NCBI RefSeq assembly: GCF_038002225.1
Contig: NZ_JBBOCA010000001.1
Span: 5,208,001 to 5,272,000, forward strand
Reading direction: 5' to 3'
Length of the DNA stretch: 64,000 nt
Source: Paenibacillus sp. FSL R7-0204
GTDB lineage: Bacteria > Bacillota > Bacilli > Paenibacillales > Paenibacillaceae
Shown here piece after piece: positions 9,166-37,741 of the stretch. The position numbers and the translations under genes were made by a program. How positions within the stretch are numbered: the stretch's first letter is position 1; each line of letters opens with the position of its first letter. The notes beneath the pieces are model-generated. The model ran no database searches. It was not told where the DNA came from and was given only the letters and a program-made list of their open reading frames with translations.

Positions 9166-9170
9166 ATAGC

Positions 9171-11346: not shown

Positions 11347-11368
11347 TATTGGTTAAATATTGGGTTCA

Positions 11369-11845: not shown

Positions 11846-11866
11846 TTCTCTACCTCCTAAAAAATA

Positions 11867-14995: not shown

Positions 14996-15017
14996 GTAAT
15001 ACTTCCTTTCGCATACT

Positions 15018-19885: not shown

Positions 19886-19895
19886 CCATCTACAC

Positions 19896-20705
19896 CTATT
19901 TTCTGTATATAGTAAAAACCAACGCGTTATATTCGGTAGATGACACATTAATTTTGTATTTTGCATCTTCAAATGTTCTAAAGGGCAGGTTATACTCTAC
20001 TGTCTTCTTGGGAGCAACATAGGCCAACATGGCATCTACAGTAGCCGGCTCAATCTTTTGCCGCATAATCGCTTCCGCTTCCTTCATTTGCATGGCATAA
20101 TCGGCACCCTCGATCTCGAAATCGACCAGAATGACAAGCACGGCCTTGCCCTTGGGAGGATTCTCAGTAGAAGAATTAACCTGAAGCATAGAGCCTGTAT
20201 CCGTATAATAAGTGAATCCGTTAGATGTCTTAGGAGTGCCCTTAGCGGGTGCGGAGCTGATCACAGGCGTCTTGCCATCCGTAGAAATATAAGCGGTGCT
20301 GACCCGCTGATCCCAGTTCACGCCTACGCCCAGTCCTTCGCTGACAAACTTCAGCGGCACGAACGTTCTGCCATTCTTCATCAGGGCGGCGGTATCCATC
20401 GTTTTCTTGGCGCCATCCAGCGTAAATTGCCGGTTCCCAATGACCAGCACCAGCTTCTTGCCATTGAGTTCCACCGTTACGGTGTTGGAAGCGGGAGTCC
20501 AGCCTACCTTCGCCCCCAGTGCTTCACTCACGAAACGGACCGGTACCTGCACCCGGTTCTGCTTATCGAGAAACGGCTGGGCATCCGGGAAGCTGATTTT
20601 GGAGCCGTCTACCACCACCCGGACAGACTGGGCGGCATGTGCCGATACAGGCAATAGCGAGATTAGCAGTAATAGGGCTGTAAGCCAGATTGTTATTTTT
20701 TTCAT
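19896..20705 (-). CDS. Exported stalk-domain (copper amine oxidase N-like) protein
   Basis: 269 residues with a clear signal peptide (MKKITIWLTALLLLISLLPV, cleavage after AHA). Two copies of the stalk motif follow: VPVRFVSEALGAKVGW with TVTVELNGKKLVL (about 50-95) and FVPLKFVSEGLGVGVNWD (about 115-135). This domain is common in Paenibacillus exported proteins and is thought to bind cell-wall or carbohydrate components. The C-terminal ~110 residues (from TDTGSMLQVN) have no family I know. It is 50 bp downstream of the lipoprotein gene and 10 bp upstream of the 905-aa exported protein, suggesting the three work together at the envelope. Confidence 0.8.
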   Translation of the reverse strand: MKKITIWLTALLLLISLLPVSAHAAQSVRVVVDGSKISFPDAQPFLDKQNRVQVPVRFVSEALGAKVGWTPASNTVTVELNGKKLVLVIGNRQFTLDGAKKTMDTAALMKNGRTFVPLKFVSEGLGVGVNWDQRVSTAYISTDGKTPVISSAPAKGTPKTSNGFTYYTDTGSMLQVNSSTENPPKGKAVLVILVDFEIEGADYAMQMKEAEAIMRQKIEPATVDAMLAYVAPKKTVEYNLPFRTFEDAKYKINVSSTEYNALVFTIYRK

Positions 20706-20755
20706 TTTTATATCCTCCTCAAATGGGGTTGTGACAAGATTTATCTTTACTCCTT

Positions 20756-22063: not shown

Positions 22064-22167
22064 TTTGCCGTTGCCCCTTTCCGAGTGTTGCTGCTGCGCC
22101 TGCTTCACTTCTATGTCTGAACCATCACTTTCATGATGTCTGATATTCTGAAGTTATGTATAACAAG

Positions 22168-22198
22168 CATAGCCGCGCCGGAAGCCTATGCTTCCGGC
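22168..22198 (-). promoter_or_regulatory. Competing stem-loops between WXG100 and lipoprotein genes
   Basis: A perfect 9-bp stem GCCGGAAGC/GCTTCCGGC with a 4-base loop spans 22198-22177 (minus strand). The loop-side GCATAG can instead pair with CTATGC just downstream (22173-22168), giving two mutually exclusive hairpins. No U-run follows, so it is not a standard terminator. It could stabilise the upstream WXG100 message or attenuate read-through. Confidence 0.45.
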
Positions 22199-22224
22199 CG
22201 CCTATACCTATATTCCGCCTGCTT

Positions 22225-22515
22225 CTATCTGCGAAGCTGGCTGGCAATATCACGATCGCTTTGCTCCTTGATCTCTGCTACCTTGTTCAATTGCATACTG
22301 ATGCCATTCACACACTCGACCAGTTTGTCGAGCGACGGCTTCAACTGGTTAAATTCCTCAATGAAGGCCTTGGAGGATTCACCTTGCCACCATGCTTCAG
22401 CAGCTTTGATCTCACTATCCAGCTTGTTGATGATATCTTTAGCACTTTGGCCTTTAGCTTTAATGGAACTGGCTACACTTCTAGCCTGCTCAGGACTGAA
22501 CACCTGTTTCACCAT
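22225..22515 (-). CDS. WXG100-family (EsxA-like) secreted protein
   Basis: 96 residues, the normal length for this family. ATG 22515 lies 6 nt after GGAGGTGA; the GTG at 22524 overlaps that site and is not used. The protein is a predicted helical hairpin: helix 1 from SPEQARSVASSIKAKG, the turn WWQGES carrying the W-x-G motif near residue 45, and helix 2 through FIEEFNQLKPSLDKLV. It has no signal peptide; WXG100 proteins are exported as dimers by EssC/EccC-type ATPases. It follows a second WXG100-like gene and the EssC-like gene on the same strand, so it is the likely core substrate of this system. Confidence 0.9.
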   Translation of the reverse strand: MVKQVFSPEQARSVASSIKAKGQSAKDIINKLDSEIKAAEAWWQGESSKAFIEEFNQLKPSLDKLVECVNGISMQLNKVAEIKEQSDRDIASQLRR

Positions 22516-22548
22516 TCGATTCACCTCCCTTCGTGGAATCTATTGCCG

Positions 22549-22878
22549 TTACTTCTTCCTCGCAGCGGCTGCGGCCAGCGCGCGGCGGGCCTCTTCTTCC
22601 GCCTTCGCCTTCGCCCTGCGTTCATCGTCAGCCCGCTGGACAGCGCCCGCCAGGGCCTGCAGCTGATTCTGCAGCTCCCGCATCTGTCCAAGCAAACGGG
22701 TTACATCCCGGGTAATCTCCTGATACTCGCTGCGATAAGTATCCCCGGCTCCGCCCTTCCACCAGCTGCTGCTCTGAGCGGCACTGCTGTCATTCTTACT
22801 CTGCTCCCGGCGGATATCCTCCGCCGCACTGCTTACATTTCCTGACTGCCGGCGGATTTCTTGCGGCGTAGGCAACAA
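22549..22878 (-). CDS. WXG100-like protein with charged C-terminal tail
   Basis: 109 residues from TTG 22878 (or the next codon, also TTG), 5 nt after AGGAGG. The ATG at 22902 is upstream of that site and almost touches the EssC stop, so I reject it. It has the two-helix layout with SSSWWKGGAGDTY as the W-x-G turn, then helix 2 (EITRDVTRLLGQMRELQ). An Arg/Lys/Ala/Glu-rich tail (DDERRAKAKAEEEARRALA) adds a long charged helix absent from the usual family. The partner gene at 22225 could form a heterodimer with it. A TTG start may keep its level below that of the 96-aa WXG protein. Confidence 0.85.
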   Translation of the reverse strand: MLPTPQEIRRQSGNVSSAAEDIRREQSKNDSSAAQSSSWWKGGAGDTYRSEYQEITRDVTRLLGQMRELQNQLQALAGAVQRADDERRAKAKAEEEARRALAAAAARKK

Positions 22879-22911
22879 GCTCACCTCCTCAAATGGGTCC
22901 ATTCGAAGGCC

Positions 22912-25900
22912 CTAAGTAGCCGTGCGGATACCCGAGTATTTATTCTTCATAATCAGGTAGCCATCCCCCGGCTCCAGCTCCTTCTCCTTCTCACCGTAAG
23001 GCAACCGGACGTTGAACAGATTCTGATCCTTCAGGCTGCCCAGCTGAAGTCCGCATTGTTCCTCGCGGATCGCCTTTCCGAGTCCGTCCCAGTTCCCGGC
23101 CAGCTCCGACGTGTTATCTCCAGCAATAACGGCAACCTTAAGCGCCCGTTCCTGCTTCACCATTCGTTCCAGCAATTCTTTCAAGGCATAGAGATCACCA
23201 TTCGTGAACTCCGTAAGCCGGTCAATGACGAAGACGATACGCGGCCATGAGGTATACAGCTCTGCGGCTGCACCGCCGCTGCTCTTGACCTCCAGCAGGG
23301 AGCGGCGTCTGCCCTCAAGCTCATTCTTGATTTCCTCTGCAAAGGCATACATATCATCGACGGCTGCCAAATCCGTTACACCGGGCTGCCCCAGCACACT
23401 GTAGATTCCCATGCTCCCCGAATCAAGCGCATAGACGGCTGTCTTCCCAGACTGTCTCAGCAACTGTGTGACCCAGGATACCAGCAATGTACTTTTACCG
23501 GACATAGGATCTCCGGCTACCATGACGATAGGTGTTGTGTCCAGATCCAGGACGGCAGGCTGAAGGTCGTTATCTGATAGTCCAATCGCCAGCCGCCCTT
23601 CCGGCAGTGCACAAGCCTCATTCAGCTTACGGATATCAATGGAAGCCGGCATCACCGGAATCCGCGGCGCTTCCGTTAACAGCCCGGTGTCTGCCTGTTT
23701 ACGCAGGTGAAGTATCCACTGCTCCACTCCTCCATGCTTCTGCTCTGGCAGGAGCGGCAATGCCGTCTGGAACTCCAGCGGAGGCTTGCTGCGCACAAGT
23801 CCCCGGCCGGCCGCGCGTGATGGCTCCAGGCCTTCCGTACGGCCGACAATCATTTCATATTCGCTTTTCTCTGTCATCTGCAGGCTGATGGCATTCTTGA
23901 AATTGATAGCGAATTTATAGCGTACAAGCGAAGCATTGGTAGCCGTAACCACCATGTAGATTCCATATTTGGTCCCTTCCCGCGCTAGCACCACCATCTG
24001 CTCATCCAATTCCTCATAGGTCTCCGATAAGGCGAAATAGTTGTCAATCACAAGCACCACTGACGCCAGCTTGCCGATCCTTGCCCGGTAATCGGCAAAG
24101 CCGTCCGCCCCGCTGTCTTCAAAAATCCGCTTGCGCTCATTCATGGTGCGGAACAGAAACTTAGTAAACTGGAGAATAGTCTTCTCCTGCTCCAGCGTCA
24201 TCACACCCCCGCAATGGGGCAGCGCTTCAAGCGCTTTGAACGAAGAGCCTCCGCAATCCATCAAGTATAGATGTACGTCTTCCGGTGAATACCGGTAAGC
24301 CGCTGACAAACATAAGGTTCTCAGCAACACCGTTTTGCCCGTGCCCGGCGCACCGTAAATGAAGAGATTGCCCTCCCCGGCCAAATCAAGCATCAGCGCT
24401 TCCTGCCTTTGCCCGCGCGGGTCATCTACAAGACCAACAGGGATACTCAGCGTCTCCTGGACGGACGGCCAGCCGCCGGCTTCCTCCCAGCCCCCGCCAG
24501 CCTTATACAATTCCGCTAAATGTACCGATTCAGGCAGCGGAGGATGCCAGGGTCCGGGGAGCGGGTGAACGTCTGCGCTCCGGGCAGAAGCTGCCAGCGA
24601 TTTGACCACGCTCTCCAGTTGGCTTGGCACCTCCATCTCAGGCAGCTTCTCTTCATCCAGCGGATAGATCTGCTCCTGTTTGCCGTTGAGCTGCAGCCGG
24701 TAAATGCGCTTGTGCCGGAGGTGATGCCTTTGCACGTTGCCAGGATCATACATCGCTCCAGAGTAAGCCGACTGGAACATCTCAAAGATCTCGTCATTCC
24801 CCACCTGGATAAACGCCCGCCCCGGCTCCTTGATCATGGCCGCATCCGGACGCTTAATAACATCCTTGCTGTCCGCTTCATCCTGGACCTTCAGGCAGAT
24901 CTTGAATTTGGCATTGCTCCAGATCTGATCATCCACGATTCCTGCCGGCTTCTGCGTAGCCAGGATCAGATGCACCCCCAGGCTTCGGCCTACTCTCGCG
25001 GCACTGACCAGTTCCTTCATGAAGTCGGGCTGATCCTGCTTCAGCTCCGCGAATTCATCGGCGATCATGATCAGATGCGGGATAGGCGTCATGCCGCGTT
25101 CCATGCCTCCGTTATAATACAGCTTCTGATAGCGGTCGATATTGTTGACCCCTTGTTCAGCGAACAGCCGCTGGCGGCGCAGCAGCTCGCTTTTGATAGA
25201 GAGCAGAGCCCGGTTCGTCTCATTCCCGCCCAGGTTGGTAATCGTCCCCACCAGGTGCGGAAGCCCCCGGAATACATCGGCCATCCCGCCGCCTTTGTAG
25301 TCAATCAGGACAAAGACCAGGTCATGTGGATGATAGTGGATCGCCAGCGAAATAATCAGGCTCTGAAGCAGCTCGCTTTTGCCTGAACCCGTGGTCCCGG
25401 CAACCAGGCCGTGGGGGCCATGCCCGCTCTCATGCAGATCCAGACGAAATGCGGTTCCGCCTGCGCGTACACCGATAGGGACACCCATTCCCCTGAACGT
25501 CTTGTTGCGGCTCCAAATGGACGGGAAATCCAGTTCCTCCACGGTACGGACCCCCAGCATGTCCAGCAGTGTGACCGAAGCAGGAAGAGCAAACGCTGCT
25601 CCCGTAGACCGCAGACGCAGAGGGGCCAGCTTACGGGCCGACTGTTCAAGCGTTCTTGTATTCACCTGATCGGGCACGAAGGTCAGCTTGACTCCCGATA
25701 TTTTGTCCGCGAGTTCAGCACTCTTACTGTTCATATGGATCACTACGCGGCTGTTCATCGGAAGATAGGCTTTATTGGCTGCAATGAACATCGAGGATAC
25801 GCCAAGCCGGGAATTCCCGTTATAGAGATAATTGTAAATAGGTTCATTCTCCAGCAGCGAAGGATCTTCGATGATAAAGACATAATGCGGATGCAAACTC

Positions 25901-26805
25901 CCGGGCACCGTGCGCAGCTCCCGTTCTCTCAGAATCTCCTGTAATTCACCCAGTACAGGGTGAGCCATGGGCCTGCCGCAGAGCAAGTAACGGGTGGTGA
26001 AGTCTTCATTCCACACATGGGGCAGATGCTTCAGCCAGCTCCAATCTTCAACACGTTCTTCCGGCACCAGCAGCACGAGCTTCACATCATCGTATCCGTG
26101 ATGCGTCACCAGCTGCAGGACCATTTGCTGCAGCAGATGCCGGGTTCGCTCTGCCTCTCCTGCGAGGCCGCAGATTTCAGCTTCCAGCAGGTTAACCGTA
26201 ACCGGTGCATCAGGAACCTTGGCGAACTCCAGCGCCAGCCGGTGCGGCTCCATCAGCAGCGGGTCATTCTCCAGCACGACTGCCTGCTTGTTGTATACAA
26301 TACGTAAGGCGGACGGCACACTGCCTACCCCCAGCCGCAAGGAGAGAAAATCCTGGTGAACCGGCGTCCGTTCCCACAGCTTGCTGTCATGCTGCTGAAG
26401 TCTATGCAGACAAGCTTCAGGCTCCGGGTTCATTTCGTGCAGCGCCTTGCTCTGCTGAGTCCGGGCCAGGGACAGCTCGGTACGGACATCGGCAATATAT
26501 TGCAGATACTTCTGCTCCCGCTCCTTCTTCTGCCGGTTATACTTACGGATCTGCGACGCTGCACCCGTGAAGGAGAACAGAAGCGTGGTTACCGTCATGG
26601 CAATGGAGAGCATCATATACATAGACTGGGCTGTCAGTGCCAGCAGCACGGTAATGACGAGCATTACGGCAGGGGGCACCAGCAGGGCCATCCAGGCGAT
26701 CTCCGGTTTAGCATACGCATGCGGAGGATTCGGAATTTCCAGTTCACCGCCAGGCATATCCGGCAAAAATCTGGGCTGGCGGCTGAATTCGTATACTTTT
26801 GCCAT
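22912..26805 (-). CDS. essC: EssC/EccC-type FtsK-SpoIIIE ATPase of T7SS
   Basis: 1297 residues from ATG 26805, 6 nt after GGGGG. Two membrane segments lie at about 38-90. Three P-loop domains follow: domain 1 Walker A GTTGSGKSE near residue 468 with Walker B LIMIADEF; domain 2 Walker A GAPGTGKT near 817 with VVLVIDNYF; domain 3 Walker A GDPMSGKS near 1098 with VFVIDRLTEF. This is the motor that drives export of WXG100 proteins in type VII secretion. N-terminal FHA domains, found in classical Firmicutes EssC, are absent, so the layout is nearer to actinobacterial EccC. Upstream are YukD-like and Tad-like genes, downstream the WXG100 genes. No EssA, EssB or EsaA gene is seen in the window. Confidence 0.93.
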   Translation of the reverse strand: MAKVYEFSRQPRFLPDMPGGELEIPNPPHAYAKPEIAWMALLVPPAVMLVITVLLALTAQSMYMMLSIAMTVTTLLFSFTGAASQIRKYNRQKKEREQKYLQYIADVRTELSLARTQQSKALHEMNPEPEACLHRLQQHDSKLWERTPVHQDFLSLRLGVGSVPSALRIVYNKQAVVLENDPLLMEPHRLALEFAKVPDAPVTVNLLEAEICGLAGEAERTRHLLQQMVLQLVTHHGYDDVKLVLLVPEERVEDWSWLKHLPHVWNEDFTTRYLLCGRPMAHPVLGELQEILRERELRTVPGSLHPHYVFIIEDPSLLENEPIYNYLYNGNSRLGVSSMFIAANKAYLPMNSRVVIHMNSKSAELADKISGVKLTFVPDQVNTRTLEQSARKLAPLRLRSTGAAFALPASVTLLDMLGVRTVEELDFPSIWSRNKTFRGMGVPIGVRAGGTAFRLDLHESGHGPHGLVAGTTGSGKSELLQSLIISLAIHYHPHDLVFVLIDYKGGGMADVFRGLPHLVGTITNLGGNETNRALLSIKSELLRRQRLFAEQGVNNIDRYQKLYYNGGMERGMTPIPHLIMIADEFAELKQDQPDFMKELVSAARVGRSLGVHLILATQKPAGIVDDQIWSNAKFKICLKVQDEADSKDVIKRPDAAMIKEPGRAFIQVGNDEIFEMFQSAYSGAMYDPGNVQRHHLRHKRIYRLQLNGKQEQIYPLDEEKLPEMEVPSQLESVVKSLAASARSADVHPLPGPWHPPLPESVHLAELYKAGGGWEEAGGWPSVQETLSIPVGLVDDPRGQRQEALMLDLAGEGNLFIYGAPGTGKTVLLRTLCLSAAYRYSPEDVHLYLMDCGGSSFKALEALPHCGGVMTLEQEKTILQFTKFLFRTMNERKRIFEDSGADGFADYRARIGKLASVVLVIDNYFALSETYEELDEQMVVLAREGTKYGIYMVVTATNASLVRYKFAINFKNAISLQMTEKSEYEMIVGRTEGLEPSRAAGRGLVRSKPPLEFQTALPLLPEQKHGGVEQWILHLRKQADTGLLTEAPRIPVMPASIDIRKLNEACALPEGRLAIGLSDNDLQPAVLDLDTTPIVMVAGDPMSGKSTLLVSWVTQLLRQSGKTAVYALDSGSMGIYSVLGQPGVTDLAAVDDMYAFAEEIKNELEGRRRSLLEVKSSGGAAAELYTSWPRIVFVIDRLTEFTNGDLYALKELLERMVKQERALKVAVIAGDNTSELAGNWDGLGKAIREEQCGLQLGSLKDQNLFNVRLPYGEKEKELEPGDGYLIMKNKYSGIRTAT

Positions 26806-26816
26806 CTTCATCCCCC

Positions 26817-27653
26817 TTAACGGCTTCTGTCTGCCTCAAAGCGAACCGCTTGTCCGCCTGACATGGGCATGGTGTACCACAGCTCTTGATGTACGAAGAA
26901 CAGTTGCCCGTCTGCCTTATGCACGCGGTCCGCACGCTCTCCATACATGCGCAGGCTCTCACCAGACTTCAGATCCAGCCTATAGATCGATCCGTCATTG
27001 CCCGCATTGCAGCAGTAGATGTAACCACCTTCGCTGATCATGCTGAGCGGAATCAGATCCGGGTAGGCTTCCTGCTCACCGGACAGCGGATCAAGCAGCG
27101 TCAAGGCATATCCGTTCGTCAAATCCGCATACAGGAGCCGCGCTCCGCAAGTTTGCAGATAAGCAGCGCCTCCCTCAGTCAGCCGGGCAGAGCGGTTACC
27201 CTCCAATGGACAACTGTAGATCCCTTGTGCGCAAGTATAATAGAGCTGTTCTCCCAAGATCGTATAGCACTGCACCACACTGTCCGTAAGGCGTTCGGGC
27301 TTGCGTCCATCCGGCAGACAGCGGTACAATCTTCCATCCTTTTCATTAATGTAAAACAGCCAGCCTGCTCTGAGCCTGATCTCACGGCAAGGCTCATGCA
27401 GCACCACCATAACCTCTTGCGTTCCCGTATCCACTCTAACCAGGGCATTGCCACGGCTCTGGTCACTGGCGAACAGCAACCCTCCCGCTTCATTCATGAA
27501 CCAGAGAATTCCCGGCAGCCTTTCAGCTCCTCCTTCATCCCGGTTCAGTATGTAAGTTCCGGGTTCCGGTTCCAGCGTCCCGCATAGATCCGTTATGTAG
27601 AACACACCCGGAGTCTGTAAGAGGAGTCCGCCGCCTGCAATATTATCATTCAT
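26817..27653 (-). CDS. Cytoplasmic beta-propeller-like protein (DUF5050-like)
   Basis: 278 residues from ATG 27653, with the ribosome-binding site AGGAGAGGAATG overlapping the upstream stop. No signal peptide or membrane segment is present. The chain is built of repeated ~40-residue units with the pattern G-x-LFY-I/N-x-x-D-G-x-LYR, such as GWLFYINEKDGRLYRC, GEQLYYTCAQGIYSCP and GYIYCCNAGNDGSIYRL. These are the blades of a small propeller, as in DUF5050 proteins. It lies between the YukD-like and EssC-like genes with a 4-bp gap to the former, so it is an integral member of the operon. A scaffold or substrate-adaptor role is inference; Cys content is high for a cytosolic protein. Confidence 0.7.
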   Translation of the reverse strand: MNDNIAGGGLLLQTPGVFYITDLCGTLEPEPGTYILNRDEGGAERLPGILWFMNEAGGLLFASDQSRGNALVRVDTGTQEVMVVLHEPCREIRLRAGWLFYINEKDGRLYRCLPDGRKPERLTDSVVQCYTILGEQLYYTCAQGIYSCPLEGNRSARLTEGGAAYLQTCGARLLYADLTNGYALTLLDPLSGEQEAYPDLIPLSMISEGGYIYCCNAGNDGSIYRLDLKSGESLRMYGERADRVHKADGQLFFVHQELWYTMPMSGGQAVRFEADRSR

Positions 27654-27657
27654 GCTG

Positions 27658-27894
27658 TCATTCCTCTCCTATCAGCGTCAGCAGCGCGCCGTGGCTGACA
27701 CCCTCTTCCTCAAGTGAACGTGCGCTCTCCAGAATACGGCCCAGCGGCTCTGCCTGCAGTCTCCTTCTCTGCGGCTTCTTCAGCGCAAGCGGCTCCTCCA
27801 GCATCTCCAGCAGTTCAGATACCGGGATTTCCGAGGGCAGCTTCAGATCGGCTTCCACCGTTCCTGCCTTCAGCGTAACCATCACATATTCCAT
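27658..27894 (-). CDS. YukD/EsaB-like ubiquitin-fold protein
   Basis: 78 residues, matching the length of B. subtilis YukD and S. aureus EsaB. The sequence has the beta-grasp pattern: MVTLKAGTVEADLKLPSE (two strands), helix SELLEMLEEPL, and a final strand-turn-strand GVSHGALLTLIGEE. YukD/EsaB proteins are conserved small components or regulators of firmicute type VII secretion. Its place between the pseudopilin-like genes and the EssC gene is the strongest link between the Tad-like and T7SS-like halves of this cluster. Confidence 0.8.
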   Translation of the reverse strand: MEYVMVTLKAGTVEADLKLPSEIPVSELLEMLEEPLALKKPQRRRLQAEPLGRILESARSLEEEGVSHGALLTLIGEE

Positions 27895-27915
27895 AAGAAT
27901 CCTATCCTCCGTTCC

Positions 27916-28404
27916 CTAGTTCTTCACAGAGAGTACGGTCATCCGCTCGCCTGTCATGACGAAATCCACATCCTGCCCGGCTTTCCGGGCCAGCCGTAAA
28001 TATCTGGTCTTGAACACATAAGGGACTTCCGCCAGGACATGCACTTCAGTGGTTTCCCGCCCATTCCATGCCTCAGGCTCATGTCTAAATTCAAGGGTTA
28101 CCTGTATCGCCTGCTGCTCCCCTGCGAAGGTTAGCTGACCTCCATCGTTGCTTGTAAGCCCGGCTTTCATCGCTGCACCGAACGCTTCAGCGAAATACTC
28201 CGCGAAACGTTCTTCATCCACCTCCGCATCTAGCCCCCGCAGCTTCTCATAGACCAGACTCCGGTCCTTGGCAGAACGCAGCGCGTTATTAAGCGCCGTA
28301 CTCAGCACAATCTGCTCGCGTGAAATATTGAACACTTCGGTCAGCGGTGCAATCAGGATGGACAGCATCACAGCGATCAGAATGGACACCGCGATTGTTC
28401 TCAA
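27916..28404 (-). CDS. Pseudopilin/TadE-like membrane protein
   Basis: 162 residues. The start is TTG 28404; no ATG or GTG is available nearby upstream in this frame, and a GGGGA lies 9 nt before. One N-terminal membrane segment (AVSILIAVMLSILIAPLTEV) is followed by a helical then beta-rich exterior domain, a layout like TadE/TadF minor pseudopilins. A classic G/XXXXE leader is not visible. It is co-transcribed with a similar 159-aa protein (28437-28916) and the small pilin-like peptide. Residues EFRHEPEAWNGRETTEVHVL resemble the beta-sheet edge of pseudopilins. Function assigned from layout and context. Confidence 0.6.
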   Translation of the reverse strand: MRTIAVSILIAVMLSILIAPLTEVFNISREQIVLSTALNNALRSAKDRSLVYEKLRGLDAEVDEERFAEYFAEAFGAAMKAGLTSNDGGQLTFAGEQQAIQVTLEFRHEPEAWNGRETTEVHVLAEVPYVFKTRYLRLARKAGQDVDFVMTGERMTVLSVKN

Positions 28405-28436
28405 GTCCTTCAGTCCCCGCTTCTCATCTCAGTGAG

Positions 28437-28916
28437 TTAATCGAAATAATAGTCCAGATCCTTATAATGCTTCAGCCCGACTGAGGTTAGCGAAAAAAAC
28501 ACGGGAATCTCCGTGCGGATCTCTTCCCCCCATAGCTTAACGCTCAGCGGATAAACTGCGCGTACCGTGACCGTCACGGGCTCTCCCCGCTGGCGGTAGG
28601 GCTTCTCCAATTCGGTCGCATTGGCATAGACCGTCTCGTCATCGTTCCCGACGGCCCTGCCCTTATCTTCATTAAAGGCTTCGACCTCGATCTGATCCGG
28701 ATGCTCCCGGTAGATCGGCCGCTCCTTCAGACGCTTCAGCGCATCATCATAATAGGATTGCTTGATGTAATTATCGCCGGCAGCAACCTGTGACAGGTTG
28801 AAGGTCTCGATGACCAGCGTCATGTACCATGGGAAGAAGAACACCAGATTGGTGAACACCATAATGCTGGCTGCCACCACAATCGCGACCAGAAAGGATT
28901 TTGCGACTCCCCGCAT
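28437..28916 (-). CDS. Pseudopilin/TadE-like membrane protein
   Basis: 159 residues from ATG 28916, 10 nt after a strong AAGGAGG. One N-terminal membrane helix (SFLVAIVVAASIMVFTNLVF) continues into an amphipathic helix and an exterior domain with VTVTVRAVYPLSVKLWG as beta-strands. The layout parallels its neighbour at 27916-28404, though I see little sequence identity, so the two may be paired minor subunits. No standard prepilin cleavage site is evident. It sits 21 bp after the small pilin-like gene in the Tad-like half of the operon. Confidence 0.6.
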   Translation of the reverse strand: MRGVAKSFLVAIVVAASIMVFTNLVFFFPWYMTLVIETFNLSQVAAGDNYIKQSYYDDALKRLKERPIYREHPDQIEVEAFNEDKGRAVGNDDETVYANATELEKPYRQRGEPVTVTVRAVYPLSVKLWGEEIRTEIPVFFSLTSVGLKHYKDLDYYFD

Positions 28917-28937
28917 AGCCGGTGTACCTCCTTCGGA

Positions 28938-29156
28938 TTACTGTGTGAATTTCTCAATCTGATTCATGAACAGTTTCCAAATATCACCGATCCAGGTTCC
29001 CAGATTGTCTTGCACAATTACGATAGCCGCACCGATTATGACAATTGCTGCTACAGTAATTGCAATCTGCTTCACCCCGATATCCCCGCGTTCTTCTGTC
29101 CAAAAGCTCTCTTGACTCTTCTTAGACTTAGCCACGTTCTGCGAATTCTTCTCCAT
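28938..29156 (-). CDS. Small pilin-like single-span protein
   Basis: 72 residues from ATG 29156, 9 nt after GGAGG; readings from further upstream overlap the TadC gene. A hydrophilic, Lys/Ser-rich N-terminal leader of about 27 residues ends in EERGDIGVKQI and runs into the membrane helix (AITVAAIVIIGAAIVIV), followed by a short helix DNLGTWIGDIWKLF. The placing of a Gly just ahead of the hydrophobic stretch resembles a Flp/TadE prepilin, although position +5 is Lys rather than Glu. The prepilin peptidase at 35735 could process it. It is the best candidate for the major fibre subunit of the Tad-like module; experimental support would be needed for that. Confidence 0.65.
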   Translation of the reverse strand: MEKNSQNVAKSKKSQESFWTEERGDIGVKQIAITVAAIVIIGAAIVIVQDNLGTWIGDIWKLFMNQIEKFTQ

Positions 29157-29181
29157 ATTATTCAACCTCCGAATGTAAAAT

Positions 29182-30063
29182 TTATTGAAACATTTGCAGT
29201 GAACCTCTGACCAGGAACAGATAATAAATGGCAATGTACACGAACAAGATGATAATGAGTATCCATTGGATTCGTGCATTGCTGCGCTCACGCTGCAGCA
29301 GTTCCTTCTCCAGCGCTTCCACCCGGAATTGATTGACCTCATTCTTGAGGTACACCATCTGGGAGACATTGTCATAGCCTCTAAGGCGGGTCTCCATGAT
29401 ATCGCAGAACTTGATCACATAACGCATAGGAACCCGTTTCTTAAGCTGCTTCAGCGCATATTCCTCGCCGTATTCAATATTGTCCAGCATCACACCCAGC
29501 TCTTCGGCCATATCCTGGCCCGCATGGGGAAGGTAATCACGAATCACATCCGCCAGATAGATATTGATGGATTTGGAGTACTGGTAGTAGACCATGCTGT
29601 AAAAGGCAGGGAAATCAAGCGAGATATTGCGGTTCTTCTTCTCGATCTGTTCTTCAAGGCTCTTCACCGGATAGATCCAGCCCAGCAGAATGAAGATGGC
29701 GGTCACACAGCCGAGCAGCCGGTTGGCACTGCCCAGCACAAGGGTCAGCAGCATTCCGCCCGAGGCATAGAGCAATTGATTCAACCGAATCTCCTCCGGC
29801 CGGACCAGCAGCTCCAGCCGGTCTATCATCTTGCGGAAGCGGATGCGGTCAGCTGTGCCCACAAAGCCTGTCATATATTTCAGGGCAAAGTTCTTTTTGT
29901 ACAATGCTACCCGCTGCTTCAGCTGCGTGCTTTTTCGTTCGTTCATGAACCGGCGTGCGCGCTTCTTCTTTCGTCCGCTGACCGGCTTCAGCATGGGCAG
30001 GAGAAACAGCTTAATCAAATACAGAATGGACGTTAAGGCACACACCTTGGCGATAAAGATCAT
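29182..30063 (-). CDS. tadC: TadC-like pilus assembly platform protein
   Basis: 293 residues with membrane helices at the N-terminus (IAKVCALTSILYLIKLFLLP), the middle (about 95-140) and the C-terminus (WILIIILFVYIAIYYLFLV). The central cytoplasmic part contains LDFPAFYSMVYYQYSKSINI, typical of the T2SSF fold of TadC. These proteins pair with TadB to form the inner-membrane platform that transmits the CpaF motor's movement to pilins. Its ATG overlaps the TadB stop (ATGA), indicating coupled translation and equal amounts. Confidence 0.8.
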   Translation of the reverse strand: MIFIAKVCALTSILYLIKLFLLPMLKPVSGRKKKRARRFMNERKSTQLKQRVALYKKNFALKYMTGFVGTADRIRFRKMIDRLELLVRPEEIRLNQLLYASGGMLLTLVLGSANRLLGCVTAIFILLGWIYPVKSLEEQIEKKNRNISLDFPAFYSMVYYQYSKSINIYLADVIRDYLPHAGQDMAEELGVMLDNIEYGEEYALKQLKKRVPMRYVIKFCDIMETRLRGYDNVSQMVYLKNEVNQFRVEALEKELLQRERSNARIQWILIIILFVYIAIYYLFLVRGSLQMFQ

Positions 30064-31043
30064 TTACGGTCACTTCCTCCCCCAAGGTTACCCTGGAGCG
30101 CCTGGGTACGGGCGAAGCTCAGACAGATCACACAGATCATCATGGTGTTAATCAGCTTCCCGGCCTGTGTGTACAGCATGAACTCGCGAAATCCGTCAAT
30201 GGACAGGGCGTAGATGAAGAACAGCAGTACGATGACGGTTTTCATCAGGAAATCACGGTTCATTTTGCGGAAAATCGTCTCCTTACGCGCATTGATCTCC
30301 CTCAGCACCGCATTCTCATCTACAATATCCAGGAAGATGTCGGCCATTCCCTTGCGTTCGTTATATTCAAACACAATCGCTTTCTTGGTAAAATCATCGA
30401 ACTTAGGACCGAGCTGGCGGTTCAGCAGGGTGATGGCCTGCCTGAAGCTGTATCCGTTATTCTCGCAGTTATCTATGAACTGCCGGAGATAGACCCGGAT
30501 GTTAGGGCTGATGTATTCATCACTCTCCATCACCTTCTTGATCGCGACCAGCACGCCGTCCCGTGCCAGCGGACAGATCAGATCCTCTGCGTCCATAATA
30601 TTTTCGATATCCTGGGCCCGTATAATCTTGGACTGCATCACGAACCAGGTCATCAGGCCGACAAAAATGGAGATGGTTACGACTACCGACAACGTTACGC
30701 TATTCATGAAGAACACAATGACCACGGCTACCAGCGCGAAAGAAATGCAGAGCAGAGAAGTGAAGCTCTCCAGGGTAACCGGGAGGTTGAAATCCAGAAT
30801 CAGTCCTTCCACCAGCCGATTGTATTTCGCGATCGGGCTCTCCTTCCGCTTGACGATACGCTCCCGCTTAATCCGGGCAACGTAACGCTTGGTATTGTAT
30901 TTACCAAGATGGTCAGCTACCGTATCCAGCAGATCTAACAGGCGGTGAAGAGAGCCCTCGAAGAAGCGGACCTGGAAGATCGTATTGAACAGCACGAAGG
31001 CCGCAGCGCCGAGCAGCAGACTAGTGAGTAAGTTCACATTCAT
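30060..31043 (-). CDS. tadB: TadB-like pilus assembly platform protein
   Basis: 327 residues from ATG 31043; a longer frame to 31226 only shadows the CpaF gene. An N-terminal membrane helix (NLLTSLLLGAAAFVLFNTIF) is followed by a central pair (about 100-155) and a C-terminal pair (FLMKTVIVLLFFIYALSIDG and onward). The cytoplasmic T2SSF-type region has RQLGPKFDDFTKKAIVFEYN. It overlaps the CpaF gene by 23 bp and TadC by 4 bp, so the three are translationally coupled, as in Tad loci of Gram-negative bacteria. Confidence 0.8.
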   Translation of the reverse strand: MNVNLLTSLLLGAAAFVLFNTIFQVRFFEGSLHRLLDLLDTVADHLGKYNTKRYVARIKRERIVKRKESPIAKYNRLVEGLILDFNLPVTLESFTSLLCISFALVAVVIVFFMNSVTLSVVVTISIFVGLMTWFVMQSKIIRAQDIENIMDAEDLICPLARDGVLVAIKKVMESDEYISPNIRVYLRQFIDNCENNGYSFRQAITLLNRQLGPKFDDFTKKAIVFEYNERKGMADIFLDIVDENAVLREINARKETIFRKMNRDFLMKTVIVLLFFIYALSIDGFREFMLYTQAGKLINTMMICVICLSFARTQALQGNLGGGSDRK

Positions 31044-32487
31044 CGAATGCATAACCCTCCGTTTCGTCCTCGAGGGGCTCCCGGGTGAGGAATTCAAACC
31101 GGCTGCGCTTAATGCCGGCCTTGAGCATAGATTCCTGGGCACGCAGGGATAGCTTGCCCACCCGCTTGTGCCGCCCGATAATTTGGACCACCCTTGTGCC
31201 GCCCGCCTCCTCCACCACATCATCATAGATGAACTTATAAATCGGATTGATCAGCGGCTTCAACCCTTCTGACCCCAGAATCTCAGATATCGAAGTGACC
31301 TTGCGGGTTCCGTCAGCCAGCTTCTCCTGGTAGATTACGAATTTGACTGCACTGCAGATGTTGCGCAAGGCAAGCTCAGCCGGTTCATTGGACACCATCA
31401 AATAGGCAGTCAGGAAGCGGTAGATCGCCTCCTCATCCCCTTCGGCATGAAGTGTGGTGAAGAAGTAATGCCCCGTCTGTGCCGCCCGCAGCGCAGTCGC
31501 GAATTCACCCGGGGTCCGCAGCTCGCCCGGTCCGATCCAATGCGGAGACTGCCGCATCGCATTAATCAGCAGGTTCTCCATCGTAGCCGGACTGGCATCA
31601 TCCTCTTCAGGCACGGATTCGTACTGCAGCACATCATTGATGATGGGGCCGAATTCTCCCCCTTCCCGGCGGTGCAGCCGCATCTCGGAAGGATTCTCAA
31701 TCGTTATGATCCGGGAGAGCGGATGAATCTGCTTCACTAACACCTCATTCAGCGTCGTTTTACCGCTGCCGGTTGGCCCTACAGTAATCCATGACTGATC
31801 TGCCTTGGGAATCAGAGAGAGCAGCCGAAACATATTGACAGAGAAGCTTTGTTCATGAATCATCATGGCGGGAGTAAGACTTTTTTTGCTGAATTTACGG
31901 ATGACAAAAGCAGGCAGCTCATAGGGCGAGATTTCCGCATGTGTGGCATTCACCCGGTACCCTTCCACCGTCCGGGCATTCACCATCGGAACCTTCGGTG
32001 TTAGGCGCATCTTGGACACTCCAATTAACTTCGATATGATACGCTCCATATGTTCGCGGTCTGTGAAATGCTGGTCCCAGCGCAGCGTTTTACCGCCGGT
32101 CTCCACGAAGATCTGTTCCGGCCCGTTGGCCCGGATCTCGTCAATTTGCGGGTCCTCCATGGCCTCGGTTATCGGGCCATAATGCGTGATTTCGTTAATC
32201 AGCGCATTCTTTAAAGACTGCAAACCGCCATACCCCTCCACACTAGGCTTCTGGGAATCGACGAACTCCATAATATACCCCTGGGTCATTTCCCGTTTGC
32301 GGATCGGGTCTCTCTCCCGGCGGAAGGCATTCGTTGCTGCCTTGCTAATGTATTTCTGGCATAATTCCAGCGCTTCCTCGAAGCTGATGGTGGTGTATTT
32401 ATTTTTGAGTGCATCCATATCTTCCTCTTGCGTGCTGTGGTGCGAGAACTTCTGCTGCATTTCACTTACTTTTGCCCGGGTTAGCAA
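31021..32487 (-). CDS. cpaF: CpaF/TadA-type secretion ATPase
   Basis: 488 residues starting at TTG 32487, 8 nt after AAGGAGG. The N-terminal part is a helical region, then the T2SS/T4SS ATPase core: Walker A TVGPTGSGKTT near residue 236, Asp-box-like and Walker B region with HWIGPGELRTPGEFATAL, and the His-box TGHYFFTTLHAEG. CpaF/TadA ATPases are hexameric motors that power Tad pilus assembly and, in Gram-positives, related competence or Flp-like fibres. Walker B is less canonical (GEL in place of GEVR). It lies 14 bp after a ParA-like gene and overlaps TadB. The gene shows that the locus has a second motor besides EssC. Confidence 0.88.
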   Translation of the reverse strand: MLTRAKVSEMQQKFSHHSTQEEDMDALKNKYTTISFEEALELCQKYISKAATNAFRRERDPIRKREMTQGYIMEFVDSQKPSVEGYGGLQSLKNALINEITHYGPITEAMEDPQIDEIRANGPEQIFVETGGKTLRWDQHFTDREHMERIISKLIGVSKMRLTPKVPMVNARTVEGYRVNATHAEISPYELPAFVIRKFSKKSLTPAMMIHEQSFSVNMFRLLSLIPKADQSWITVGPTGSGKTTLNEVLVKQIHPLSRIITIENPSEMRLHRREGGEFGPIINDVLQYESVPEEDDASPATMENLLINAMRQSPHWIGPGELRTPGEFATALRAAQTGHYFFTTLHAEGDEEAIYRFLTAYLMVSNEPAELALRNICSAVKFVIYQEKLADGTRKVTSISEILGSEGLKPLINPIYKFIYDDVVEEAGGTRVVQIIGRHKRVGKLSLRAQESMLKAGIKRSRFEFLTREPLEDETEGYAFDECELTH

Positions 32488-32501
32488 GGCTCAGGCCTCC
32501 T

Positions 32502-33329
32502 TCACTGATTAATAATGGAATCCCGCAAACGGTTCATTTCCTTCATGAATGCCTTATTTTGCAGCGGATGATCTTTAACATATAGCTTGCCGTCCTGGGT
32601 GTACGCCGTTGCGGCCTTCACGAAGGGCAGCGCTGCTGCGATCTGAAAGCCCATCTGCTTAAACACCTTATAGTCCAGCCCGATCTCATGCAGGTTCATC
32701 ATAATCACACTGGTGAACTTGGCTGTGCTGATGCCAATGGAAGCGGCAAAGTCCAGCAGCTTGGTCATATTGCCCGGCGCCTCGATCCGCTCGGCTGCTG
32801 TAAAATATCCGATATGGCAGTGCTTCATCGCCCCCGTGCAGAATTCGAGTGGAGGATTATATGGAATGTCCAGCAGGATAATATCGAACATTCCCTTAAG
32901 TGTGGCTAATACCTGTTCAATATGCGCGAAACCAAATTCGAAGTATTCCTCCAGCAGATCATAGGGACTGGGGGAGAGCAGATACAGGTTCTCTTCTGAA
33001 GTAGAAGCAATATCTTCACGCATATCCGCTTTATCGCTTTTGAGCACCCGGATCAGCCCTTTTCCTCTGGCGGGAGGGTCTACACCAAACAGATAGTAGA
33101 GGTTCGGATTGAACACTTTAAAATCCACGATGCAGGTGTTGAAGCCTTGCTGCGCCAGCAGATAGCCTAAATTGCCGATCAGCATGGCCTGATCTGTCCC
33201 TTCACAGGCCGGCAAGAAACCAATAACACTATAGATCAGCGGGCTGTCCCGAAACTCGGCTCCGACCAGCTCCTTGGAGGATATCTTGCGGAAGATGCTC
33301 TCCAGTTTTTTTACTTCTTTTCGATCCAT
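32502..33329 (-). CDS. ParA/MinD-fold protein with degenerate P-loop
   Basis: 275 residues. The fold of a SIMIBI ATPase is recognisable from GNLGYLLAQQGFNTCIVDFK (start of the switch region) and FDIILLDIPYNPPLEF. The expected Walker A (KGGVGKT-type) is replaced by LPACEGTDQAML, with no Lys, so ATP hydrolysis is unlikely. It may be a structural partner of the TadZ/CpaE-like protein or a positioning factor for the apparatus. The ATG at 33329 overlaps the end of the CpaB-like gene by 19 bp. Confidence 0.7.
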   Translation of the reverse strand: MDRKEVKKLESIFRKISSKELVGAEFRDSPLIYSVIGFLPACEGTDQAMLIGNLGYLLAQQGFNTCIVDFKVFNPNLYYLFGVDPPARGKGLIRVLKSDKADMREDIASTSEENLYLLSPSPYDLLEEYFEFGFAHIEQVLATLKGMFDIILLDIPYNPPLEFCTGAMKHCHIGYFTAAERIEAPGNMTKLLDFAASIGISTAKFTSVIMMNLHEIGLDYKVFKQMGFQIAAALPFVKAATAYTQDGKLYVKDHPLQNKAFMKEMNRLRDSIINQ

Positions 33330-34195
33330 GATTCCACCTCATTTTGCAGTGTAGGCAGCTCATCCATAATTACCGTGCTGCCGCTTCTGCTGAGCATCGT
33401 AATCAGAAAGCTTTTGCTGTCCAGGCTTTTGTATTTGGCATACTTGTTAATCTCCTCACCTGAGCCTTCCAGCAGCAGAGCCTTGGGCTGAATGCTCTTC
33501 AGGAAATCGTCGCTGCGCATAACCTCCTGCCGCTTGTCCTCGCTCAGCTTCAGCACTTCCTTGTATACCTCATAGATCGAATGACTGTTCGCGTTGAGCA
33601 TATCCTTGATGACGATACTGTCGAACAGAATCTCGGTCTTCGTAACGGAGGACTGTGAGGGGTTGAATACGGCATTGGGATTGCCTCCTGCACCGGAAGC
33701 TGCAGCTTCTTCCACATTGTAAGACACCCGGATACGGACACGGTCTCCCGGCATCAGAATGTCTCCGCCAGCCTCAAGGAAGTTGTAGGGCAGGGTGAGG
33801 ACTTCCTGCTTCTCACCCAGCTTATACAGCCATTCATTCTTGACCGGCTTCTCATCCAGCAGCTGATCCTCATACAGCACACTATTATCCCGAATATAAT
33901 ATTTCGTGAACTTGCCCAGTACTTCAGGGAGCTTGTCCGCCAGCACCATATCGGATGTATACTCTGTGCGGATAATGTTATAGGTCTCCACTTGCTTCTC
34001 TGTCAGCACCGTAAAGGCGGGCAGCCCTCCCTTTTCTGTGAGCCGCAGCACCTCTACCGTATCACGGGCATCCTGGCTGGCGTTGGTGATGACTATGTAT
34101 GAAACGACAATGACGATCAGACTGAACAGTACTGCAACTATTCGTTTCAACAGGTTCCGGTTGGGAGCCACATTTTTTACACCTCTGATATCCAT
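33311..34195 (-). CDS. cpaB: CpaB/RcpC-like SAF-domain protein
   Basis: 294 residues with one N-terminal membrane helix (AVLFSLIVIVVSYIVI) and an exterior region. A SAF-like segment appears in GLPAFTVLTEKQVETYNI and the loading loop PGDRVRIRVSYNV. SAF proteins of the CpaB/RcpC type sit outside the membrane in Flp pilus systems, where they guide pilin or bind wall components. No Gram-negative partner (secretin RcpA) is present, as expected for a single-membrane cell. It overlaps the ParA-like gene downstream by 19 bp and follows TadZ directly. Confidence 0.75.
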   Translation of the reverse strand: MDIRGVKNVAPNRNLLKRIVAVLFSLIVIVVSYIVITNASQDARDTVEVLRLTEKGGLPAFTVLTEKQVETYNIIRTEYTSDMVLADKLPEVLGKFTKYYIRDNSVLYEDQLLDEKPVKNEWLYKLGEKQEVLTLPYNFLEAGGDILMPGDRVRIRVSYNVEEAAASGAGGNPNAVFNPSQSSVTKTEILFDSIVIKDMLNANSHSIYEVYKEVLKLSEDKRQEVMRSDDFLKSIQPKALLLEGSGEEINKYAKYKSLDSKSFLITMLSRSGSTVIMDELPTLQNEVESWIEKK

Positions 34196-35584
34196 CTACC
34201 CCGAACCCTCCATCAATCTAAGAAGTATGGTGCCGAACGCCCGCTCGAACGCCGGTCCGCTGTTCACAATCGGGATATCACTTTCGATCTGCTGGTCAAA
34301 TTCGGCACTGGCAGGCACGTAGCCGGCCAGTGCCGGTTCGTACCGGAAGCTGTCACTGAGGCCCGAGCCGAGCAGCTCACCGACCTTCTCCGGGGTAAAC
34401 AGGTCACCGTGATAACGGAAGCTGTGATTATAGCGGGTGACAATCACTTTGGTCTTGGCATTGAGATAGGCGGCAGAATCCCGTTCAAGCACTAATTCAA
34501 TATTCCGCAGGGTGCTTAGCACCGAATACAGGTTGTTAGGAACACACAGTCCGAAGGTATCCATATGAATCAGCGCACTCTCCATCTGCCGCATGGCATC
34601 CAGGGGAAGATCGAGTACGACAAGGTTGAAGTTATTCCGCAGAGCCGATAACAATCCGGCCAGCTTCTCGCTGGTGTAGAATTGCTGAATCGCCCGCTTG
34701 TCCTGGAATCCGTAGCTGAGTGTAGTCATCCACAGATTCCCCTGAACAGGAAAAGCATTGGTCCTGTAATCCTGCGGCTTCGCCAGCATCCGGATCAAAG
34801 AACTCCCCAGATGCTCATCCTTGTGCGCCTGTTCATCAAATCCGCTGAAATACAAGTTAATCCCTCTGTATTCAGTATCCATATCCACAAGAATAGTGTT
34901 CAGTCCGCGTTTTGCAGCTTCTGCCGCCAGATTGACCGCGGTGCTCGTCAGCCCGCTGCCCCGGTGTCCGGTCACCGCCACGACCCGGCTCATCCCCCGG
35001 CTGATGTTCGCCAGCTCCCGGGAGAGCGGGTCAGTGGACTGGATCGCTTCTGCATCCTTCCCTTTGGAACGGAACCTGTCCAGAAAAGAACGCTTCTTGC
35101 CCTTCAGCTCACCCGGTTCACTCTCCCGGGCTGGCGTGAAGCGCATTTCTAGGCTGCCTGATCCTAACCCATTATTCCTCTGACGATCTGCAAGCTGTGC
35201 CAAAGCCTGCTTCACCAATGCGATTGGCAGCCTGGGCGTATGATATTCAAGAACGCTGAGCCCCAGATATTGTCTTGCAAGCGATGACCAGGCTTCTCTC
35301 TGACCCGGGTCTCTCGTTAATATAATTACCGGAGTGTCTTCCCGTGCCTGGGATAGATGCTCTAACAAAGTATGAACAGACTCCTTGTCAGCAGCCAGTC
35401 CGTCCGGCAATCCTTCGTCTGTAATCACAACAGCTTCCGGTCCGGGAAGGGTGGAATTCTGCAATAATCCGGCGGCTTCCCGGACCCGCAGGCTCCCGTC
35501 ATTCATCGTGGTCCACGGATCTGCGATATGGGCAGTGATGTACCCGTGAGCTGTACCTGCGAGTAGAAGTACCCTCATTTTCAA
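34196..35584 (-). CDS. TadZ/CpaE-like receiver-MinD protein
   Basis: 462 residues, first gene of the minus-strand secretion operon. The N-terminal ~150 residues look like a receiver-type fold (EAVVITDEGLPDG, TPVIILTRDP), as in CpaE. The MinD-like half has VTGHRGSGLTSTAVNLA, a P-loop lacking the usual Lys, then ILVDMDTEYRGINLYF and LVVLDLPLDAMRQ. CpaE/TadZ proteins place Tad pili in the cell. The P-loop change suggests weak or no ATPase activity, as reported for some TadZ proteins. ATG 35584 lies 6 nt after AGAGGATT. The prepilin peptidase is divergent from it, with a 150-bp intergenic region holding no promoter I can rate highly for this strand. Confidence 0.75.
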   Translation of the reverse strand: MKMRVLLLAGTAHGYITAHIADPWTTMNDGSLRVREAAGLLQNSTLPGPEAVVITDEGLPDGLAADKESVHTLLEHLSQAREDTPVIILTRDPGQREAWSSLARQYLGLSVLEYHTPRLPIALVKQALAQLADRQRNNGLGSGSLEMRFTPARESEPGELKGKKRSFLDRFRSKGKDAEAIQSTDPLSRELANISRGMSRVVAVTGHRGSGLTSTAVNLAAEAAKRGLNTILVDMDTEYRGINLYFSGFDEQAHKDEHLGSSLIRMLAKPQDYRTNAFPVQGNLWMTTLSYGFQDKRAIQQFYTSEKLAGLLSALRNNFNLVVLDLPLDAMRQMESALIHMDTFGLCVPNNLYSVLSTLRNIELVLERDSAAYLNAKTKVIVTRYNHSFRYHGDLFTPEKVGELLGSGLSDSFRYEPALAGYVPASAEFDQQIESDIPIVNSGPAFERAFGTILLRLMEGSG

Positions 35585-35734
35585 TCCTCTTTCATTGTGA
35601 ATTTGCCTGGTATAGAACCCCGGCCTTCAGCCTTGACACAATACGGCACATCATGAGAACATTTTCCATAAAACGACTAATAGTGCAGAGCACAAAACCC
35701 AGCACAGCACACAGAATCCGAGGCGGTGTCCTAT

Positions 35735-36154
35735 ATGAAACTCCTATTGTTATCCAGCCTTATGCTAATACTGATCTTATGTAGCTTAAGTGATATCCGC
35801 CGGCGCAAGATTCCCAATATGCTGACAGCCTTAATTCTGGGAGTGGGCATTCTTCATATGATCCTGTACGGGTCTCTGCTGAACTCGCTTAACGGTTTGC
35901 TTCTTCCCGCCGCCCCCCTTCTTCTCTTGCGCAGGTACTCCCGTTCGATTGGAGCAGGAGACATTAAGCTAATCTCGGCTGTAGGGGTATGGCTGGGAGG
36001 ACTCCTCAATCTGGCCCTGTTCGGTGCGGCTTGTCTGTTATGTGCTGCGGTTCTGCTCTTGAAGCGGACCTACCGGCAGGAGTTTCCCGGCTCCGTGCCC
36101 TTCGCTCCTTTTCTTACTGTTCCAGTCATTCTGACCGTGTTAATTATGTATTAA
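35735..36154 (+). CDS. Short type IV prepilin peptidase (TadV/CpaA-like)
   Basis: 139 residues from ATG 35735, about 8 nt after GAGGCGG; GTG 35726 overlaps that site. The protein has only the A24 peptidase half: membrane helices with the catalytic Asp in LSDIRRRKIPN and the second in GAGDIKL. The N-methylation half seen in long PilD proteins is missing, as in TadV/CpaA. It cuts leader peptides of prepilins at the inner face of the membrane, so the pilin-like peptide and pseudopilins in the divergent operon are its likely substrates. A TTGACA at 35633-35638 could be the -35, but its -10 is weak. Confidence 0.85.
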   Translation: MKLLLLSSLMLILILCSLSDIRRRKIPNMLTALILGVGILHMILYGSLLNSLNGLLLPAAPLLLLRRYSRSIGAGDIKLISAVGVWLGGLLNLALFGAACLLCAAVLLLKRTYRQEFPGSVPFAPFLTVPVILTVLIMY

Positions 36155-37689: not shown

Positions 37690-37741
37690 TAACGCTAATT
37701 TCCTCCTCAAGTACGGACAATTCCAAAAAACAGACTAAATT

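Follow-up and report, generated by a model that had tools for sequence, protein, structure and literature searches.

In a 64,000-nucleotide stretch of the Paenibacillus sp. FSL R7-0204 genome (the whole stretch analysed, hereafter the window), a complete set of tight adherence (Tad) pilus genes runs directly into the genes of a minimal type VII secretion system (T7SS). We propose that this dedicated Tad apparatus and the minimal type VII exporter form one functionally coupled system, a reading that comparison of sequences favours with moderate confidence, and that the coupled system is probably antibacterial. By its gene content the locus is a T7SSg, a subtype described by Garrett, Higginson and Palmer in 2024 as having two WXG100 proteins, TsgB, TsgC without a forkhead-associated (FHA) domain and TsgL with a DUF5050 domain (PMC11217815). 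All five components are present here, no FHA domain was seen on TsgC, a complete Tad set is adjacent, and we found no difference that would place the locus outside the subtype. The first-pass annotation of the window had assigned a same-strand Tad and T7SS cluster, and its gene types lie where it put them; its list was right as far as it went and overlooked TsgL inside the operon, and its statement that no system of this kind had been described is contradicted by PMC11217815. We found no paper besides that one on a T7SS and Tad cluster, or using the terms T7SSg or T7SSh, in a literature collection without most subscription papers. Its authors reported that a full Tad set adjoins T7SSg in all organisms, left undecided whether the placement is linked or coincidental, and raised shared regulation as one possibility (PMC11217815). 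Our comparison widens the host range of T7SSg and adds to it a substrate module, two proteins that are candidates for further components, and a sister variant that has a kinase-DUF5050 protein and an FHA domain.

The minus-strand run from 35584 to 22225 contains, in order, cpaE-like, cpaB-like and parA-like genes, cpaF, tadB-like and tadC-like genes, the pilin gene, P1, P2, tsgB, tsgL, tsgC, tsgA2 and tsgA1. All intergenic gaps along it are small or negative; P2 and tsgB are 21 bp apart, and the tadB-like and tadC-like genes overlap by 4 bp.

34196..35584, minus: CpaE/TadZ-like protein, 462 aa, first gene of the operon (AAA_31 at 23.8 bits, cut-off 27; TIGR03815 CpaE homologue at 52.8 bits, under the cut-off)
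33311..34195, minus: CpaB/RcpC-like protein, single N-terminal transmembrane segment (no Pfam or NCBIfam match; named from position and conservation)
32502..33329, minus: ParA/MinD-like protein without the Walker A lysine (ATPase matches below threshold only)
31021..32487, minus: CpaF (TadA) ATPase of the T2SSE family, intact Walker A (106 bits)
30060..31226, minus: TadB-like platform protein (profile probability 79 to a T2SSF-positive TadC; no Pfam match)
29182..30063, minus: TadC-like platform protein (no Pfam match; tadB overlap of 4 bp in 32/32 loci)
28938..29156, minus: short pilin, 72 aa from the Met of MEKNSQ (Flp1_like at 14.3 bits, cut-off 33.5, sub-threshold)
28437..28916, minus: P1, 159 aa, N-terminal transmembrane segment, pseudopilin-like position (conserved order; no useful family match)
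27916..28404, minus: P2, 162 aa, N-terminal transmembrane segment, last gene of the Tad half (conserved order; no useful family match)
27658..27894, minus: TsgB, YukD/EsaB ubiquitin-like protein, first gene of the T7 half (PF08817, 43.3 bits)
26817..27653, minus: TsgL, DUF5050 protein (PF16472, 68.1 bits)
22912..26811, minus: TsgC, EssC-type ATPase, 1299 aa, three FtsK/SpoIIIE domains (TIGR03928, 1234 bits, cut-off 778)
22549..22902, minus: TsgA2, WXG100 protein with WKGG (46.3 bits)
22225..22524, minus: TsgA1, WXG100 protein with WQGE (54.5 bits)
35726..36154, plus: prepilin peptidase (Peptidase_A24), divergent (45 bits)

To assess how firmly the two halves are joined, we collected relatives of TsgC by scanning 84,980 species genomes, which yielded 30 loci, and from further related genomes; together these gave 33 distinct loci with a TsgC of at least 58% identity; one on a 4.8-kb contig (L043) was left out, leaving 32. 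The order CpaE-CpaB-ParA-CpaF-TadB-TadC-Flp-P1-P2-B-L-C was identical in 32/32 loci from Paenibacillaceae and Clostridia, with a P2-to-tsgB gap of 10-22 bp and a TadB/TadC overlap of 4 bp across them; L050 keeps the order with cpaF and tsgC fragmented in the available sequence. Hosts include Alkaliphilus transvaalensis, Acetivibrio alkalicellulosi and two metagenome-assembled genomes (MAGs), one of a Clostridium and one of an uncultured Clostridia member. The WXG100 genes are less fixed, being variable in order and lying farther along in L042 and L045. We also searched for the window TadB in 295 Paenibacillales relatives (found in 24 genomes) and in 391 genomes of the class of Acetivibrio (found in 10), and for TsgC in the same 686 genomes. 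TsgC scores were bimodal, with at least 1218 bits in 22/295 and 7/391 genomes and at most 909 bits elsewhere. In all 29 TsgC genomes the contig with TsgC also bears the TadB lineage, no more than 3.4 kb away in 26 and at 6.2 kb (G417), 6.5 kb (G633) and 12.5 kb (G330) in the others. The Tad and T7 halves of G417 and G633 are convergent yet still adjacent, so the neighbourhood outlives rearrangement. A Fisher test of the co-occurrence gave p ~2.5e-46, a value that, with related genomes, should not be read as the probability of independent events. That the two gene sets are neighbours by coincidence in a few genera, which the 2024 authors were unable to exclude with their genomes (PMC11217815), is very improbable given the same order and 10-22 bp junction in 32/32 loci of two classes, the adjacency retained after rearrangement and the 29/29 co-occurrence; judged by the shared order, the arrangement is not chance. 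Conserved co-occurrence in relatives, which the first-pass annotation had put forward as a check, is thus borne out, with 3/34 Tad genomes lacking an adjacent T7SS. Neither of the two contrary results it had named turned up, namely a second complete cluster with EssA, EssB and EsaA elsewhere in the genome while this one is not co-transcribed, or Tad and T7SS genes not kept together in related genomes.

The T7 half is short of membrane partners. The first-pass annotation had noted that EssA, EssB and EsaA are absent from the window; for EssB this extends to the whole 7.71-Mb genome, in which YukC/EssB had no match (the B. subtilis control was positive), while EssA and EsaA had no separate search. 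EssB was found in 0/34 genomes carrying such systems (31 T7SSg, 2 T7SSh and the Ruminococcus MAG locus L058). The genome has no second EssC at E<=1e-50 and no WXG100 protein beyond TsgA1 and TsgA2. By hydropathy TsgC is the sole transmembrane protein of its half, and without a membrane partner such as EssB a stand-alone exporter would be unusually bare. Compared with the T7SSb of B. subtilis (Yuk/Yue) and S. aureus (Ess), the locus has EssC, WXG100 and YukD proteins in common; it differs in that the window genome has no EssB match, no FHA domain was seen on EssC, and Tad genes lie inside the operon.

A variant of this architecture bears on TsgL. G417 and G633 (loci L143 and L144), whose EssC is sister to TsgC, have in the TsgL slot a Ser/Thr kinase fused to DUF5050, together with an EssC that carries FHA; in L058, Tad genes, a kinase-DUF5050 gene and an FHA-EssC gene form one run. 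FHA was not among the best 25 of 48 families for the window TsgC, nor among all 18 families listed for the TsgC of G330, and the same search detects it in L143 and L058. The kinase domain and FHA are thus present together or absent together, and TsgL probably keeps the kinase's place. In the results, substrate and discussion passages of PMC11217815 we found no mention of a kinase-DUF5050 fusion.

We built trees from 35 loci, one on 2468 concatenated columns of the Tad half and one on 1631 of the T7 half. The two share 28/32 splits, with no conflict supported at >=95 on both sides. For further comparison we assigned L123-L125 to T7SSh from the description in PMC11217815, where Tad genes likewise lie beside an FHA-less EssC; their Tad half is homologous to that of T7SSg, whereas the T7 half is ahead of the Tad half and a kinase-like protein, TshM, stands in place of TsgL (PMC11217815). 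T7SSh also differs in having its ATPase elsewhere in the tree and pilins without an obvious leader. T7SSg Tad profiles score T7SSh Tad proteins far above the ordinary Tad of the window's own genome (CpaF 354-369 versus 115 bits), and the EssC tree, which came with long-branch warnings, does not place the T7SSh ATPases as sisters of TsgC. Type VII systems may thus have linked up with this branch of Tad on more than one occasion. Pilin-like peptides of L124 and L125, homologous to the T7SSg pilin, begin right at the membrane helix. A further arrangement was seen in L070 (G018, 350-8780) and the similar L071-L074, where an EssC without obvious FHA lies beside a weak WXG100 match. Two more neighbours there are a protein of 344 aa, whose SAF domain (a domain of CpaB) scores below threshold, and one of 473 aa, TadZ-like in appearance; these loci are perhaps another Tad-flavoured T7SS without CpaF.

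Several observations weigh against coupling. Linked genes are co-inherited with or without interaction, and an approximately unbiased (AU) test rejects swapping the half-trees (p 0.0095 and 0.035), at log-likelihood differences (47 and 40) that are small beside the 18,000-29,000 for shuffled labels. Among the 34 TadB genomes, 29 have TsgC, two (G078 and G219) have a T7SSh-type EssC 7 and 9 kb away, and three (G686, G525 and G391) have no T7SS gene beside Tad and no TsgC-clade match (one 69-bit match, a 1749-aa frame in G686, was not examined), so the Tad half is able to do without TsgC. Against FtsK, the FtsK-type matches checked in these three reached 472-518 bits; against EssC they reached 116-125. 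The pilin feature described below (Lys at position +5) also occurs in loci without a T7SS, which makes it a trait of the Tad lineage and no mark of coupling, and the hairpin of the proposed substrate module, a shape also found in WXG100 proteins, matches many unrelated hairpins besides EsxB and PE25. The three genomes without an adjacent T7SS would suit two separate machines in a shared operon, Tad serving contact or adhesion and the T7SS exporting toxins alone, with one transcript timing both; shared regulation was among the possibilities raised in 2024 (PMC11217815), and between 20500 and 36500 we found no excess of internal promoters or terminators over shuffles, consistent with a single transcript. 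We consider separate machines unlikely, given the bareness of the T7 half, with no membrane partner for TsgC and EssB not found, and given that TsgC was never seen without Tad (29/29). The asymmetry, in which TsgC always has this Tad and Tad can stand alone, is suggestive only, and as we read the CpaF tree the lone Tad sets would represent at least two separate losses. Another kind of EssC-like pair, divided between two genes and with a weak WXG100-like neighbour, lies 2.7 Mb from Tad in G525, and G633 has the same pair in addition to its adjacent TsgC; the genes (L209 in G525, 7926-13238, and L210 in G633) encode 1077 aa and 582 aa and resemble the EccCa/EccCb split. Near the Tad set of G686 (L140, 15928-18310) lie DUF6382-FHA and PP2C genes, types counted among T7SS components (PMC11217815); no TsgC-type ATPase was found in that genome.

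The Tad half is itself unusual. Like the canonical Tad/Flp pilus it unites in one operon the genes for CpaF, TadB/TadC-like proteins, a pilin, a prepilin peptidase and CpaE-like and CpaB-like proteins, and it is strongly diverged from the ordinary Tad of its own genome at 6.39 Mb. In a profile comparison against that ordinary locus, the first-pass names CpaF, TadB and pilin were backed (probabilities of 100, 79 and 70); its TadC and CpaB were not (best 24, against L058, and 6), and these two names rest on position, size, hydropathy and conservation with the gene set. Apart from CpaF and the peptidase, the Tad-like genes have diverged too far for Pfam to recognise, and neither platform protein had a Pfam match to T2SSF. 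The annotated start of the TadB-like gene is probably too early, as it overlaps cpaF by 206 bp. Walker A of CpaF is intact in 32/32 loci; the CpaE-like protein has its Walker A lysine substituted (GHRGSGLTS), and, as a difference from canonical Tad, this lysine is missing from the CpaE-like and ParA-like proteins in the rows listed (21 and 20 of 32, respectively). P1 and P2 are retained in Tad loci without a T7SS, and a local prepilin peptidase is present in 11/32 loci.

Flp pilins have Glu at position +5. The window pilin, whose reading frame extends back to 29375 and whose cleavage region reads G|DIGVK, departs from this rule and from canonical Tad: counting from the conserved G, 32/32 pilins have K or R at +5, and six more (L139-L144), two of them from T7SS-less loci (L140 and L142), have K, whereas the ordinary Tad pilin of the same genome (L089) has E. 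Two more Tad-like clusters lie at 6.368-6.400 Mb of contig C1 of this genome, the ordinary L089 (E5 pilin, T2SSF platform) and the divergent L088, with two short pilin-like peptides apparently without a leader. The short pilin bears on a more specific possibility, that T7 cargo leaves through the Tad set itself, as a true secretion conduit, or is pushed out by it as a pseudopilus piston, in the manner of type II secretion and without a long pilus. The Tad proteins are the only membrane proteins of the operon besides TsgC, the pilin has 72 aa with K/R at +5 in 32/32 loci versus E5 in the ordinary pilin, and the T7SSh pilins are apparently leaderless; set against this is the K5 of T7SS-less loci, and we regard a conduit of this kind as possible though doubtful.

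Downstream of the operon, two genes are candidate extra components.

19896..20705, minus: secreted protein with a copper amine oxidase N-terminal domain, candidate extra component (117.6 bits)
17168..19885, minus: Sec-type secreted protein, 905 aa, with a CARDB/Ig-like domain (residues ~262-392), candidate extra component

Counted in the 14 loci from the species-genome scan with a full 10-kb downstream flank, the copper-amine-oxidase-domain protein occurred in 11/14 T7SSg loci and the 905-aa protein in 13/14. Hits to the former mean less because its domain is common. L036 and L037 have the homologue of the 905-aa protein upstream, L034 has neither candidate, and no copy of either turned up in the T7SS-less Tad loci examined; the T7SSh locus L125 has a weak 34-bit match to the 905-aa protein. 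The 39 homologues listed for the latter are all hypothetical or nameless and without a Pfam domain. Its structural model is poor overall with one domain resembling CARDB, and the protein may correspond to the Ig-like TsdI/TseI of other subtypes. A 1866-aa secreted protein at 2912-8512 of the window has weak Ig-like domain matches below cut-off.

Beyond these lie two candidate substrates, each with a candidate immunity gene.

15018..17138, minus: candidate substrate, polymorphic-toxin-like, N-terminal hairpin module, C-terminus without a Pfam match
14408..15043, minus: pentapeptide-repeat protein, candidate immunity partner
11867..14005, minus: candidate substrate with the same N-terminal body and a C-terminal WHH (HNH/EndoVII) nuclease (PF14414, 55.2 bits)
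11369..11845, minus: SUKH-family candidate immunity protein (PF14568, 88 bits)

The two tandem toxin-like genes have nearly identical first ~550 residues and unlike C-termini, and their first 100 residues recur across T7SSg loci. This module is N-terminal in toxins and in CHAP/peptidoglycan-binding proteins and C-terminal in Mbeg1/lipase proteins; reverse lipases at a T7SSg locus had been noted earlier (PMC11217815). With a profile trained on T7SSg loci, a threshold of at least 50 bits and flanks of unequal length, we counted 36 distinct copies (22 N-terminal and 14 C-terminal), of which 36/36 have a YxExxV turn and 34/36 a YxxxD/E motif, the latter a known mycobacterial type VII motif (PMC5311947). 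The module is present in 25/34 T7SSg loci versus 0/33 other loci, with weak matches (17-20 bits) in L045, L061 and L208. Toxin bodies in T7SSg-negative genomes are without it (0/10 loci versus 9/10), and the leader, scored by an alignment start at residue <=16 with up to four candidates per genome, was found in 13/22 T7SSg genomes versus 1/273 others. The exception is a genome that lacks TsgC, in which G013:C5 109074-110027 matches the toxin leader (query 2-327). Structure prediction folds the module into a two-helix hairpin (pLDDT, the predicted local distance difference test, of 89) with YPE at the turn. We suggest that the hairpin module marks candidate type VII substrates. Integrase-core and HTH transposase genes adjoin the toxin genes at 9537-10963, and an adjacent gene pair at 36416-37710, upstream of the peptidase gene, resembles deoxynucleoside kinases by reading alone.

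Taken as a coupled system, these parts suggest a possible route. TsgC with TsgB would recognise TsgA1/A2 and substrates bearing the hairpin module, with its YxExxV turn and the YxxxD/E at the end of helix 2. TsgL, in the slot held by a membrane kinase in sister loci, would act on or near the TsgC N-terminus. The K5 pilin, with P1 and P2, would go into a short pilus or pseudopilus assembled by CpaF, TadB and TadC, a structure that would supply what EssA, EssB and EsaA supply elsewhere, either wall passage or contact with target cells; this step as a physical conduit is the part we hold only tentatively. As the first-pass annotation suggested, pilin extension or retraction, driven by CpaF, may be coupled to export, and the coupling to the EssC motor may be mechanical. 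The cargo, nucleases with immunity genes here and lipases and CHAP peptidoglycan hydrolases in relatives, would act on neighbouring bacteria. A precedent for coupling is the Kil Tad pilus of Myxococcus xanthus, in which a Tad apparatus works with a second, secretion-type complex (T3SS*, resembling a type III secretion system) in contact killing (PMC12075869). That organism is Gram-negative and the partner T3SS-like, and the likeness to our locus is in role only.

In the most far-reaching form of this model, a Tad platform with a short K5-pilin pseudopilus replaces EssA, EssB and EsaA and drives or conducts cargo, CpaF and TsgC act as a pair of motors along a single export path, and the YxExxV/YxxxD-E hairpin tags the substrates; such a hybrid machine is conceivable, and we put it forward with some reserve. 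If it were true, type VII ATPases would have recruited Tad platforms at least twice, in T7SSg and in T7SSh. With the barest T7 half and a Tad neighbour that looks obligatory, T7SSg would offer a direct test of whether a pilus platform can be the device that takes type VII cargo through the wall of Gram-positive cells. The question posed in 2024, whether the two gene sets are linked or coincidental neighbours, now has a strong case for linkage, with candidate substrates and components supplied.

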